DNA from: Candidatus Bathyarchaeota archaeon
GTDB lineage: Archaea > Thermoproteota > Bathyarchaeia > Bathyarchaeales > Bathyarchaeaceae
Reading direction: 5' to 3'
DNA length: 37,351 nt
NCBI GenBank assembly: GCA_026967815.1
Contig: JAPUUO010000004.1
Coordinates: 1 to 37,351 of the forward strand
In this document: positions 16,806-21,907 of the stretch, one piece after another
How positions within the stretch are numbered: the first letter of the stretch is position 1
How the letters are laid out: each line of letters begins with the position of its first letter
Position numbers and translations under genes: made by a program
The notes under the pieces: generated by a model
Told to the model about the DNA's origin: nothing
Seen by the model: only the letters and a program-made list of their open reading frames with translations
Databases searched by the model: none

Positions 16806-17117
16806 CTATTTTCTCGCTAACAGTATCAAACCGCAAAAGATGTTTATAGCTCCGAGAAAACCAAGAGCGCCAATAGCTAGCGGGTCAGTAAACGAAAACT
16901 CCATAGAGACCAAAATCCCGTACAAAGACAGAAGGGAAAACAAAGCACCAGCGGGAATCATTAAGAGAGATAAAGCTCTGCCTATTTTCTCAGCTGCCTT
17001 AAAAACATCCAGCGTTTCAACACCCGTTGTGTCTTTTAGAAGCTCCAGCTCTCGATTTCCGAAGGCAGGAGCTTCAACTACCATTTCCTTTTTCTTCTGT
17101 TTCGGCATTCTGCTCAC
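16806..17117 (-). CDS. Small 2-TM membrane protein (103 aa)
   Basis: Two TM segments, C-terminal FLGAINIFCGLILLARK; downstream of APC permease. Confidence 0.65.
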   Translation of the reverse strand: MSRMPKQKKKEMVVEAPAFGNRELELLKDTTGVETLDVFKAAEKIGRALSLLMIPAGALFSLLSLYGILVSMEFSFTDPLAIGALGFLGAINIFCGLILLARK

Positions 17118-17141
17118 AAACTAAATGTTGAAATGGAATGG

Positions 17142-18695
17142 TTAAAATAGCTTGCGCATGCCGATGAGAATGTTTAAGACCCCAGCCAAAATCGAAACTA
17201 TGCTCACGAAAACCAACATGTATGGAGGAACCTGAGGCAGTATAAGCGGTTTGAAACCTTTTTCCATGAGACAAGCAAACAACGCCGCGAAGAAACCCAT
17301 GCCTAGGCTGATTCCACCCAAAGCAACGCGCAGTCGATGAAAACCCACCATCCTGAGATGATAAGTTGCTAGAACCAACCCCATCAAGCTAAGACTCCAT
17401 AAAATTGCGCTCTCTGCGTTCACATCTCCTTCTAGAAGCACGGGAACTGCCAGAAGCATAAGAGACATGCTGATCCCAATTATTGGAGTAATGGGATAGA
17501 AAGGAGCCTTCAGGGGTCTTTCTAAACGCGGTTTACTCTCTCTAAGCTTTATGACTGAGAGATTAACCAAAGCAAATACTAGAATGGACGCAAAACTCGC
17601 TGCATAGCCCAACCCGACAGCTCCAGCTCCAAGGATAAGGAACAACAGAATGAAAAGCGAGTTTACGATAACCGCCACATGTGGGGTCCCAAAACGTCCA
17701 TGAAGTTTCATCAAAACCTTGGGGAAGTATCCGTCTCTACTCATCCCACAAACAATAGATGATTGAACCGTTATAGCTGTGCTTACGGAAGAAATGCTCG
17801 CAACCATGCCGCCGATCGCGACTAAGACGCCTCCCAACAAACCCAAAGTTTTTTCAGCTGCAAAATTAAGCAAAGTAGACTCAACGAAGTCTTCCTGTCC
17901 GACAACGCTAGTCGTTACATAGGCAACGGTACAATAAAGAGCTATCAACAAAATCATCGACAAGAATATGGCCTTAGGAATGTTCTTCTCAGGATTTTCT
18001 GTTTCCGGGGCTGCTACCACGGTTGCTCTTACCCCAACAAACATGATGAACGTATACGCAGTGGCCGCAAAGACCCCAGATATACCTTCAAATCTGGGCA
18101 AGACTTCTGGAACAACTTGGCCCTGACCGAATCCACTTACAATGAAGAGAATGAAGATGGCTAAGAATGCGACTACTAGTAGAGTAGTGATCTCTTTTAC
18201 TCCTCGAACGCTCAGCGCACCAAGGATGAATATCAAGATGGCTGCGATTAGATTTGTGTAAACTAACATTTGATTTTGATCCAAAGGAAAGAGAATCATC
18301 AATAAGTACGATAGTTGTTGAGTGAAAACTATGGCTGCAAAGGCTGCCCCGAATATACTGCTGAGCCACCTTAGACCACCAGCCATGAAAGCAGTGAAGC
18401 CTCCGAACGCAGCTTTAGCATATGAATATTCCCCTCCTCTCACTGGGAGAGCTGCACAAAGTTCACTATAGCTAAACATTGTTAACAAGCATATCAACCC
18501 ACCGAGAAAAAGCGCAAAGACCATGCCCCCCTGAGCCAAAGAATATGCATAGCCTAACTGCCCGAAGATTTCAAATCCAATAGCACTTCCTAACCCGATC
18601 ATTATTGCACCGAAAAGTCCATGTTTCTCTCCCTTCTTCAACTGAGCATCAGCCCCAATAAGCTCCTTAATGTTCGTGGAGGAGGAAAAACCCAC
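17142..18695 (-). CDS. APC superfamily amino-acid permease with extra C-terminal 2-TM unit
   Basis: GLGSAIGFEIFGQLGYAYSLAQGG, FVGVRATVVAAPETENPEKNIPKAI; about 14 predicted TM segments by eye. Confidence 0.88.
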   Translation of the reverse strand: MGFSSSTNIKELIGADAQLKKGEKHGLFGAIMIGLGSAIGFEIFGQLGYAYSLAQGGMVFALFLGGLICLLTMFSYSELCAALPVRGGEYSYAKAAFGGFTAFMAGGLRWLSSIFGAAFAAIVFTQQLSYLLMILFPLDQNQMLVYTNLIAAILIFILGALSVRGVKEITTLLVVAFLAIFILFIVSGFGQGQVVPEVLPRFEGISGVFAATAYTFIMFVGVRATVVAAPETENPEKNIPKAIFLSMILLIALYCTVAYVTTSVVGQEDFVESTLLNFAAEKTLGLLGGVLVAIGGMVASISSVSTAITVQSSIVCGMSRDGYFPKVLMKLHGRFGTPHVAVIVNSLFILLFLILGAGAVGLGYAASFASILVFALVNLSVIKLRESKPRLERPLKAPFYPITPIIGISMSLMLLAVPVLLEGDVNAESAILWSLSLMGLVLATYHLRMVGFHRLRVALGGISLGMGFFAALFACLMEKGFKPLILPQVPPYMLVFVSIVSILAGVLNILIGMRKLF

Positions 18696-18894
18696 CTGTA
18701 ATCGAGAAAAAGCCGGAAATGCTTAAGATCAGTAGAGATATGGGAAGAAGTTCGGGGGACACACCCAGCAAGCTTTGAATGTGAAGGAAGTTGAAATAGA
18801 GTATACAAGCGAGAATGAGTGCTGACATGCCAATTGCACTCTGCGTCAAACCAACAGCCACAACAAGTGTTCTTTTAGCTTTCATCTGAGTCAC
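18667..18894 (-). CDS. Small 2-TM membrane protein (75 aa)
   Basis: 29-bp overlap with APC permease start; two hydrophobic segments. Confidence 0.65.
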   Translation of the reverse strand: MTQMKAKRTLVVAVGLTQSAIGMSALILACILYFNFLHIQSLLGVSPELLPISLLILSISGFFSITGGFFLLHEH

Positions 18895-19139
18895 TTACGC
18901 CTAAGTATAATTCCCGAAACCAGGTCAAGCGCTCCTACCACAAACAAAACCCACAAGGACAGCATGCGATATTCTTGATTTTCAAGTGTGCTGACATCTA
19001 CAAAGCCAAAAAAGACCATGGCAACTACACCTAACATTATAATTCCCATAAATATTAGAAAACCACCTAAAGCCACTGTAAATCTTAATGTATATTCACG
19101 CATGTTCTTCTCACGGCAAGTTTGCTTTCTAGTGGTCAA
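18891..19139 (-). CDS. Small 2-TM membrane protein (82 aa)
   Basis: 4-bp overlap with downstream gene; two hydrophobic segments ending VGALDLVSGIILRRK. Confidence 0.65.
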   Translation of the reverse strand: MTTRKQTCREKNMREYTLRFTVALGGFLIFMGIIMLGVVAMVFFGFVDVSTLENQEYRMLSLWVLFVVGALDLVSGIILRRK

Positions 19140-19157
19140 TATTTTGTTGATTTCGAG

Positions 19158-20783
19158 CTATTGAACAATTGTTTGGTTGAATGTCTTATGTTCCTCTTCT
19201 GAGAGCCAGCCTTCTTCTTTGAGCCTTTCAAGTCCATTTCTTACAGATTCGCGTAAGTTTTCGGTTTGTAATATATTCGCCTTCACTCCCGCCTCGTTTA
19301 TTTCTCTTTCAAAAACAACGTTTTGTTCCATTATAGTTGGAAATTTGTTGATGAGAGAAGTTATAGCTGCAGAGCGCTGAACAAGCAGTTGTTTAATCTT
19401 AGCGCGGCCCAAGGTTTTAACCTTCACTGAAAAGCTCATGCTGTTTGCCACAGAAGGTGGAAAAACAGCATAGTGCTTCTTTGAATTCACACGATAGCCG
19501 ACTACATAAAATGGCATGTCAACTAAAGTGTATTTATCGCGTTTTTGTTTGATGCCCAGCTTGCTGAGCTGGTTTAAGGTTACCTCCGTTAGTTTCGTCA
19601 GCTTGTCCATTTGACTAATAATGCTTGCGGTTTGTTCTTCGAGTTTTTCAGCTTCTTGTTTGTGGATTTGGATTTTGGCATCTCGCGAAGCTTCAATTTC
19701 CCTTAGTGCCCACATGGCTTCGTCAACACGGCTTTCGCATTCAGCCTTCAACTTCGAAATTTCTCGCTTCTTTGCATTTTCGGGCTCCCTTGTTTTTTCT
19801 TCTGCATCCTTGAGTTCTTTTTCGATTTTTGGGAGTTCTTTCTTGTGTTGCTCAAGTCTTTCTTTCCATCTTCGTTCTCCGGCGCTGTCTTTCTTAACTA
19901 CGCAAGTTTCTATTTCAGTCTTGCAGCGTTCGATTTTGCTGAGCCGCAATGATTTAGTCTTTTCAAGTCTGACTTTCTCTTGCTGTAGGCGGTATATCTC
20001 TTTTTCAAATCTTTTTGAAATCCTTGTTACTTGCTTGTTGTGTTGTTCATGAATTTTTTCGACTCTCTCCTTAACAGCTGGTTTCCGTTTTTCAAGTTTC
20101 TTGTTAAACTCTGCTTTGACTTCTTCTATTTCGTTGCGAATTGTATCGATGTATCTTTTGGTTGTTGTGTTTAAGAGTTTCATGCCTTTGGAAAGGATTT
20201 TGGTTTCCTTTGTAAATTCAGTTCTTAGATTTTCAAGTTCTAGGTTTTTTGCGAAAATCGAGGCTTTATCCAGTGTAGGTGCAAGTAGTACAGTGTCGGA
20301 AAGCGGGTACTCAATTTGCTTAGCTTCGGAGAGATACAATTTGAAGTCTTGGAAAAAATCTGAATCTGTGAGGAGACCGTCTATTATCTTTTCTTTTTGC
20401 CTTTCAGATGCTTGAAAGTAGTTGAGGTTGTCCGAAAGAAACGCTGTGTAGGCTTCTCTTGTGGCAGAACTTCGGTTCACACTGCTGATAAAAGCTTCTA
20501 CGTTTGGGACATCGTGATAAGACAGAGTGAAAGAAGCAACGTTCAGGCCGTCAAAAACGAGACTTATGTTTCCCCATGGGGCAATCCAAAAGGGGTAGCA
20601 AACTTCCACGATAAACGCGAACTCTCTTGGGGCTCGTTTTAAAACAAAACCACTGCCCTTCCGTCTTTGCATCTCGGCTAAACAGAAAACCGCTGCTCTT
20701 TCCATTCCTTTTGTGAAGAGCTTTTCACGGTTTTCGGATGGAGTAGAGAACCGGAGGATTAATTCCGTAACCTTTTCGGTCAC
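19158..20783 (-). CDS. Large coiled-coil protein of unknown function
   Basis: 541 aa; long charged heptad-like region flanked by globular N- and C-terminal parts. Confidence 0.75.
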   Translation of the reverse strand: MTEKVTELILRFSTPSENREKLFTKGMERAAVFCLAEMQRRKGSGFVLKRAPREFAFIVEVCYPFWIAPWGNISLVFDGLNVASFTLSYHDVPNVEAFISSVNRSSATREAYTAFLSDNLNYFQASERQKEKIIDGLLTDSDFFQDFKLYLSEAKQIEYPLSDTVLLAPTLDKASIFAKNLELENLRTEFTKETKILSKGMKLLNTTTKRYIDTIRNEIEEVKAEFNKKLEKRKPAVKERVEKIHEQHNKQVTRISKRFEKEIYRLQQEKVRLEKTKSLRLSKIERCKTEIETCVVKKDSAGERRWKERLEQHKKELPKIEKELKDAEEKTREPENAKKREISKLKAECESRVDEAMWALREIEASRDAKIQIHKQEAEKLEEQTASIISQMDKLTKLTEVTLNQLSKLGIKQKRDKYTLVDMPFYVVGYRVNSKKHYAVFPPSVANSMSFSVKVKTLGRAKIKQLLVQRSAAITSLINKFPTIMEQNVVFEREINEAGVKANILQTENLRESVRNGLERLKEEGWLSEEEHKTFNQTIVQ

Positions 20784-21053: not shown

Positions 21054-21431
21054 ATGCCTGAGGAAACAGTTTCCCGATTGCCCATAAAATTTGTTGTTAG
21101 GAGTGTGGGAGAGGCTGAGGGGCAACTCATTCGACACTTGGCCCCAAGAACAGTTGAAGCCATAACAACACAGCTTCCAATCGAAGGAAGAGCCGCACTG
21201 TGGAAGGAAGAGGTATATTTTGAAATTCCAGTTAAAATGGGAAATGAGAAAGCCAAAGCTAAGGTTAAGAAGGGCCAGATCGCCTATTGGCCCATGGGAA
21301 GCGCCCTCTGCATTTTTCATGGCGAAACACAACCTTACAGTCCAGTGAACATTGTTGGTGAAATCACCAAAGGCTTAGAACTGTTTGAACGTGTAGAAAG
21401 CGGAACTAGAATCAAGGTGGAAAGGATTTAA
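21054..21431 (+). CDS. Cyclophilin-like fold protein (TM1367/DUF369-type)
   Basis: GQLIRHLAPRTVEAITTQLPIEGRAALWKEEVYFEIPV...KKGQIAYWPMGSALCIFHG. Confidence 0.8.
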   Translation: MPEETVSRLPIKFVVRSVGEAEGQLIRHLAPRTVEAITTQLPIEGRAALWKEEVYFEIPVKMGNEKAKAKVKKGQIAYWPMGSALCIFHGETQPYSPVNIVGEITKGLELFERVESGTRIKVERI

Positions 21432-21907
21432 GGAAACGTGAATGCGCTGTCTGCCCATTTCTTGAGCAGTTCTTCGCATTTTTTCTTTATTTCGCTGTTT
21501 TTGCTTTTTGTTTTGAGTTTTTCGAGGAATTCTATGCGTTTTTCTATTGAAGTCATTTCGCCTAATCCATAGTAGAGTTTGCCTTCAACATAGTCTTTCA
21601 TCTGCTGAGCCTTTTGCACGATATAGCTTGCAGCGTCAACTGGGTCTTCTAGCATGTGTATAGTTGCCCAAATAGCTACGTCTGCTTCGTGGAGTTGGCT
21701 GAAGCCGTTGATTTCTTCTATTTGCCTGATGTAGGTTCTGAGGAAATCATAGTAGCCAACCAGCCTAATTAGTCGCAAAGCTTCGTTCAATTTTTTCTTG
21801 AAAGCTGGGCTTCCCTTCATAGTGAGTTGATGTTTGTAACCTTTTTCTATGATCTCTTTGGCTCTCTGCACTTCTTCTTCTGTATAAACTCGTTTGGGAA
21901 ACGCCAG
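21428..21907 (-). CDS. Conserved archaeal helical protein of unknown function; probable CTG start at 21907 (ORF track start 21871)
   Basis: (L/M)AFPKRVYTEEEVQRAKEIIEKGYKHQL...; GAGG SD 8 nt upstream of CTG; no ATG/GTG/TTG between eS25 stop and 21871. Confidence 0.6.
   Translation of the reverse strand: MAFPKRVYTEEEVQRAKEIIEKGYKHQLTMKGSPAFKKKLNEALRLIRLVGYYDFLRTYIRQIEEINGFSQLHEADVAIWATIHMLEDPVDAASYIVQKAQQMKDYVEGKLYYGLGEMTSIEKRIEFLEKLKTKSKNSEIKKKCEELLKKWADSAFTFP

Follow-up and report, generated by a model that had tools for sequence, protein, structure and literature searches.

The 37,351-nt contig JAPUUO010000004.1 of Candidatus Bathyarchaeota archaeon (assembly GCA_026967815.1), here called the window, is contig C111 of a metagenome-assembled genome (MAG) of 1.35 Mb that is 72% complete. 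A minus-strand locus in it probably encodes a heteromeric transporter of the APC superfamily, in which a permease (P) with a C-terminal two-transmembrane (2-TM) hairpin, unit E, would be joined by three small proteins, A, B and C, each a free-standing homologue of this hairpin. Homology of the modules, genetic linkage, co-occurrence, one gene fusion and a conserved triad of charged residues in the permease all point to this reading. From these patterns we infer physical assembly, the roles of the units, the substrate, and the part played by a neighboring coiled-coil protein (CC). The features are as follows.

19158..20783, minus strand: CC, 541 aa; predicted cytoplasmic, with an alpha/beta N-domain, an antiparallel coiled coil and a C-terminal domain; facultative neighbor
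18891..19139, minus strand: unit A, 2-TM, 82 aa as listed (70 aa from the likely ATG at 19103)
18667..18894, minus strand: unit B, 2-TM, 75 aa, immediately upstream of P
17142..18695, minus strand: P, extended APC permease, 517 aa (499 aa from TTG 18641), 12-TM core plus C-terminal unit
17142..17357, minus strand: unit E, the C-terminal 2-TM extension of P (residues ~447-517), homologous to A, B and C
16806..17117, minus strand: unit C, 2-TM, with a basic cytoplasmic N-tail bearing a KDTTG...VFK motif, 103 aa as listed

The five open reading frames (ORFs) run head to tail in the order CC>A>B>P>C, just where a reading of the letters alone had placed them, and all evolve as proteins: dN/dS relative to the nearest relative (L093) is 0.19 for CC, 0.37 for A, 0.29 for B, 0.19 for P and 0.13 for C. 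Their tight packing, also proposed from the sequence, is not a matter of chance: throughout the order, A, B, P and C are found as neighbors again and again. The distances between the genes are only approximate, because comparison with relatives indicates later starts for A, C and perhaps P. Unit A likely begins at ATG 19103, which widens its gap to CC from 18 to about 54 bp, and C at ATG 17108, giving 100 aa. P perhaps starts at TTG 18641, in which case its 29-bp overlap with B would become a short gap, as in most relatives. Scans for sigma-70 promoters and terminators stayed at chance level, and such models are unsuited to archaea.

The extended permease and its family of 2-TM modules

P is a member of the APC superfamily with a LeuT-fold core of 12 TM helices. 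It matches PF13520 (AA_permease_2) with 138 bits against a cut-off of 27, and the nearest solved relative of its core is GkApcT, whose structure 6f34 is found with the permease family profile at E 1.7e-55. The same structure is the best Foldseek match of a modelled fusion homologue (TM-score 0.63/0.76, E 5e-13). The family profile contains exactly 14 hydropathy peaks, the final two of which, at ~469 and ~500, correspond to unit E and follow core TM12. This bears out the earlier count of about 14 TM helices, 12 in the core and two in an extra unit. Nor is the extra pair a standard feature of the APC subfamily: matches of the CAT1/CAT4 profiles stop at position 374 of 501, alignments of LAT and GkApcT cover the core only, and the additional helices of CAT transporters lie elsewhere. 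Searches of solved structures returned chance matches only, both with an E-only profile, for which no solved relative emerged, and with the profile of B. In the tree, the extended and the short APC permeases separate, the former as a clade of their own (split support 100/99); the exception is a long-branched extended row (L071) that falls near the short ones on the midpoint-rooted drawing. In L134, and also in L072, the permease ORF is broken into two frames (207 + 139 aa) beside seemingly intact A, B and C, which reads as an assembly error or decay.

Iterated hidden Markov model searches fused A, B and C together, and the comparison of the modules therefore relied on separate alignments of A, B, C and E, built from relatives and compared by hhalign with controls. 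Each of the six pairs aligns almost from end to end, scoring 18-38. Cleaner alignments drawn from named genomes gave 42.6 for E-A, 35.0 for E-B, 30.2 for E-C, 48.1 for A-B and 41.0 for A-C. Against the core hairpins of P the four modules score about 10 or less, with the exception of E against TM11-12, whose columns physically overlap, and reversed profiles of other families reach at most 15. The resemblance of the small proteins to the extra C-terminus of P, first noticed by eye, is thus well above what generic TM composition provides. Genome-wide profile searches recover the units and essentially no other hydrophobic ORFs. In its own genome, the profile of B finds B first and unit A as the only other match. 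In genome G051, the second match of the E profile is unit A, and in G162, G187 and G196 the permease profile, at its positions 435-498, matches small free-standing ORFs of the A type.

Each of the units A, B and C is a hairpin, 70-142 aa long, that lacks an ectodomain. Charge distribution assigns an N-in/C-in topology to all four modules; A, B and C each retain motifs specific to their family, as well as invariant positions, across 30-35 divergent members. Taken together, A, B, C and E constitute one family of 2-TM modules. No unit rises above the cut-off of any Pfam family, and single members give scattered sub-threshold matches: A of the window reaches 21.5 bits with DUF3180 (cut-off 28.4) and 14.2 bits with DUF308 (cut-off 25), and only 3 of 31 and 1 of 31 A members, respectively, match these families at E<=0.1. 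DUF485 and DUF4212 are matched by no member of A, B or C in Pfam.

Linkage, co-occurrence and fusion

Conservation of the gene order was surveyed in 43 loci (42 named loci plus the window; the relatives are Bathyarchaeota/Bathyarchaeia MAGs, one of them filed as Crenarchaeota) and in 257 genomes of the class Bathyarchaeia. It is conserved, the usual arrangements being A> B> P> C> and B> P> <CC C> <A. Of the 43 extended permeases for which enough upstream sequence is available, 40 have B as their immediate upstream neighbor. C adjoins P in 27 loci, lies beyond CC in 13 and is fused in 1. Across the class, B is strongly found in 62 genomes and adjoins an extended permease in 61 of these. A phylum-wide sample contains B only within the same order, and the class survey finds it once outside (G229). 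As a control, 20 loci of short APC permeases, 19 from survey genomes of the order and one a divergent APC gene of the window's own genome, carry no A, B or C.

Co-occurrence still holds where linkage is broken (G027, G035, G033 and G229): G033 carries A> <C on another contig than the permease, and G229 has A> P> <C with B located apart. The tested genomes that lack an extended permease contain neither A nor C. In G035, an A> <C CC> trio lies apart from the permease (L155, 8777-11157), which may be read as an A/C pair acting as a separable sub-module.

In the single-contig genome G062, a 567-aa permease bears a second module at its tail, and this tail is the genome's only match to the C profile. 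Among the hints from sequence that C and P are parts of a single machine, this fusion is the strongest. When permeases and C proteins were aligned together, C fell on E rather than on the tail of the fusion (L124), and this alignment was not used for folding. Elsewhere, L071 (genome G008) contains, in coordinates relative to the permease, a tandem two-module protein of 158 aa and 4 TM helices at 1932-2408 and, at -400 to -2, a 132-aa ORF that joins a permease-like N-terminus to a B module; both can be read as further fusions or recombinants.

A gene for a nitroreductase-family flavoprotein (PF00881) directly precedes A in ten named A-B-P-C loci and is not present in the window. It is a possible hint to the pathway.

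PF00881 gene before A: L094, L095, L115, L117, L119, L120, L127, L130, L131, L132

The substrate site and the coiled-coil neighbor

In AdiC, the substrate carboxylate is held by a TM1 glycine. The equivalent Gly44 does so in GkApcT (PMC5803215), where the backbone amides of Thr43 and Gly44 of TM1 bind the carboxylate, and Glu115 (TM3) and Asp237 (TM6) couple protons (PMC5803215, PMC13194723). In P of the window, Gly44 corresponds to Glu42 and Asp237 to Arg223, and TM3 carries Arg109. Glu42 takes the place of the glycine of the TM1 GxG motif in 37 of 37 rows of this kind (E-type), and the complete triad E42/R109/R223, with K allowed for one R, occurs in 36 of the 37. The position aligned with Glu115 is Ser or Ala in E-type permeases, and Lys191 of GkApcT is likewise not conserved. 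P accordingly lacks the GxG carboxylate-binding motif, which is a feature of known amino-acid transporters and not of the fold, and the proton-coupling acidic pair of CAT and GkApcT is absent from E-type permeases. The permeases of the sister clade (G-type) carry G or A, then E (or Q), then E at the triad positions, which amounts to a charge swap.

Since the TM1 glycine has given way to Glu42, paired with Arg109 and Arg223, E-type permeases probably take a different substrate from ordinary amino-acid permeases, or bind it in another pose. The pocket appears to have been reprogrammed, with Glu42 possibly binding a cationic group or forming a pair with an arginine. In L108, L120 and L127, an E-type and a G-type permease stand in tandem beside one common set of 2-TM units, possibly forming a permease pair or heterodimer.

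In the AlphaFold2 (AF2) model of CC (pLDDT 84.7), a long antiparallel coiled coil (173-296/300-407) connects the alpha/beta N-domain with a C-terminal domain. A Foldseek search with it found generic coiled-coil lookalikes, none at E<=1e-3. CC had been proposed as a linked cytoplasmic partner, and this part of the proposal is less well supported than that on the permease and the three small proteins. The linkage is seen in about a third of cases, at 13 of the 43 loci in three geometries and in 21 of the 62 B-bearing genomes; the family is also widespread, being present in 152 of the 257 genomes (87 of the 120 good ones), mostly without the cassette. Its association with the cassette is non-random, because it stands beside the cassette at these 13 loci and also beside the A/C pair in G035, at a place away from that genome's permease. 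It is best called a facultative partner or favored neighbor. In cassette-free genomes of family f7, CC occupies a conserved neighborhood, often downstream of a Na+/H+ exchanger. Neighbors at such loci (L135-L154) are a Nre-like protein, the Na+/H+ exchanger, an inorganic pyrophosphatase and a NucS-like nuclease, assigned partly by inspection.

Elsewhere in the window, positions 21428-21871 encode a 147-aa protein with a Med26/TFIIS helical-bundle match of 25.6 bits (cut-off 20.6), beside ribosomal protein S25e.

Proposed assembly, alternatives and known systems

In the proposed transporter, P would be the catalytic, transporting subunit, composed of the LeuT-fold core and one fused N-in/C-in module. 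E, A, B and C would most likely sit as hairpins on the periphery of P, where they may stabilize, oligomerize or gate it. The basic cytoplasmic tail of C could carry regulation and would be the likeliest regulatory handle, and CC would be a facultative soluble partner or neighbor. Several findings weigh against such an assembly. B is missing from G027 and G035, which have an extended permease and encode A and C at other places in the genome, and in several genomes units are encoded away from the permease, so that a ratio of one copy per unit cannot be assumed. The similarity of C to E is the weakest of the set (18-21 with the relatives' alignments, 30 with those from named genomes). The natural fusion (L124) was also modelled with AF2, but its second module stays below a pLDDT of 60, and the model supports no claim on where that module packs. 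The 2-TM units could also act alone.

In an unlikely alternative, the small proteins are co-inherited and co-expressed with P and form no stable complex; they would help in assembly or insertion, or would be small membrane proteins that work independently in the same pathway. The looser relation seen in G033, G035 and G027, where A and C are not encoded beside the permease, agrees with it, and small membrane proteins are often regulators. However, the units are homologous to part of the permease itself, C is fused to it in G062, and transient factors rarely share common ancestry with a domain of their client. Somewhat less likely still is a system centered on CC, with CC as the core regulator and the permease and its units as its membrane target. 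The recurrence of CC at the cassette and its presence beside A and C in G035 speak for this arrangement; its abundance in cassette-free genomes and its housekeeping neighborhood by the Na+/H+ exchanger suggest instead that the cassette may simply have landed there.

Two further explanations concern the modules themselves. That A, B, C and E resemble each other through convergent TM composition of unrelated 2-TM proteins is very improbable and largely refuted. The sequences are short and hydrophobic, their single-sequence similarity is low and their sub-threshold Pfam matches are scattered, but hairpins from the permease's own core, matched to them in phylogeny and composition, remain at about 10 or less where the units reach 18-48, and the genome-wide searches single out the units among hydrophobic ORFs. 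The idea that the small ORFs arose as copies of the permease C-terminus and are now decaying draws on the same homology, and a 72-aa "standalone extension" of L060/L119 resembled such a copy; situated where a contig ends, however, this ORF is most probably part of a second permease that has been cut short. The dN/dS values of the locus (0.13-0.37), the motifs kept in divergent members and the constant operon position refute this idea, leaving it a negligible probability.

The heteromeric transporter thus remains the favored explanation. A permease surrounded by three different paralogues of the 2-TM module at its C-terminus (four copies with the fused one), a reprogrammed E42/R109/R223 site, and a sister paralogue with a charge-swapped G/E/E site, sometimes in tandem and sharing subunits, would on a slight balance of probability represent a new architecture of secondary transporter. 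A literature search restricted to open-licence papers found no description of such a system. APC transporters are usually thought to work alone or with one unrelated helper, and we know of no precedent for APC helpers homologous to the permease's own tail. In this archaeal lineage, a piece of the permease appears to have been multiplied to yield small, dedicated subunits. Nature has kept free, fused and tandem versions, and the origin of accessory subunits of secondary transporters is thereby directly testable. The swapped charges of the substrate site also point to an unrecognized class of substrates in Bathyarchaeia; these uncultured archaea abound in sediments, and little is known of their uptake systems. 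In annotation pipelines, A, B, C and CC would appear as "hypothetical proteins".

In heteromeric amino acid transporters, an SLC7 light chain of the LAT type pairs with an SLC3 heavy chain, a type-II glycoprotein with one TM helix. The present locus similarly combines an APC permease with separately encoded membrane proteins, here as predicted subunits. Unlike the SLC3 chain, these are three 2-TM proteins without an ectodomain that are homologous to the permease tail, and none is a single-TM glycoprotein. Sodium:solute symporters with small 2-TM subunits, such as ActP with YjcH/DUF485, offer another likeness, a LeuT-fold transporter encoded beside a small 2-TM protein. They belong to a different transporter family, however, and A, B and C lack Pfam matches to DUF485 and DUF4212; to our knowledge, subunits of these types are not homologous to the tail of their transporter.

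The CAT subfamily (SLC7A1-A4) shares with P the APC core and a total of 14 TM helices. Its additional pair, TM11-12, is an insertion that interrupts the core ahead of the final two core helices (PMC13022406, PMC13194723), whereas the extra pair of P comes after core TM12 (peaks 469 and 500) and is not such an insertion. The complex of GkApcT, a bacterial homologue of the CATs, with MgtS (PDB 5OQT/6F34, PMC5803215) is closest in its permease and likewise presents a small membrane protein packed on an APC transporter. MgtS has one TM helix and came from the E. coli expression host, not being encoded with GkApcT (PMC5803215). GkApcT itself has no C-terminal extension, and its Gly44 and Asp237 are replaced by Glu42 and Arg223 in P, where Glu115 and Lys191 are not conserved either. 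The units described here have two TM helices and are in most loci encoded together with the permease whose tail they resemble.

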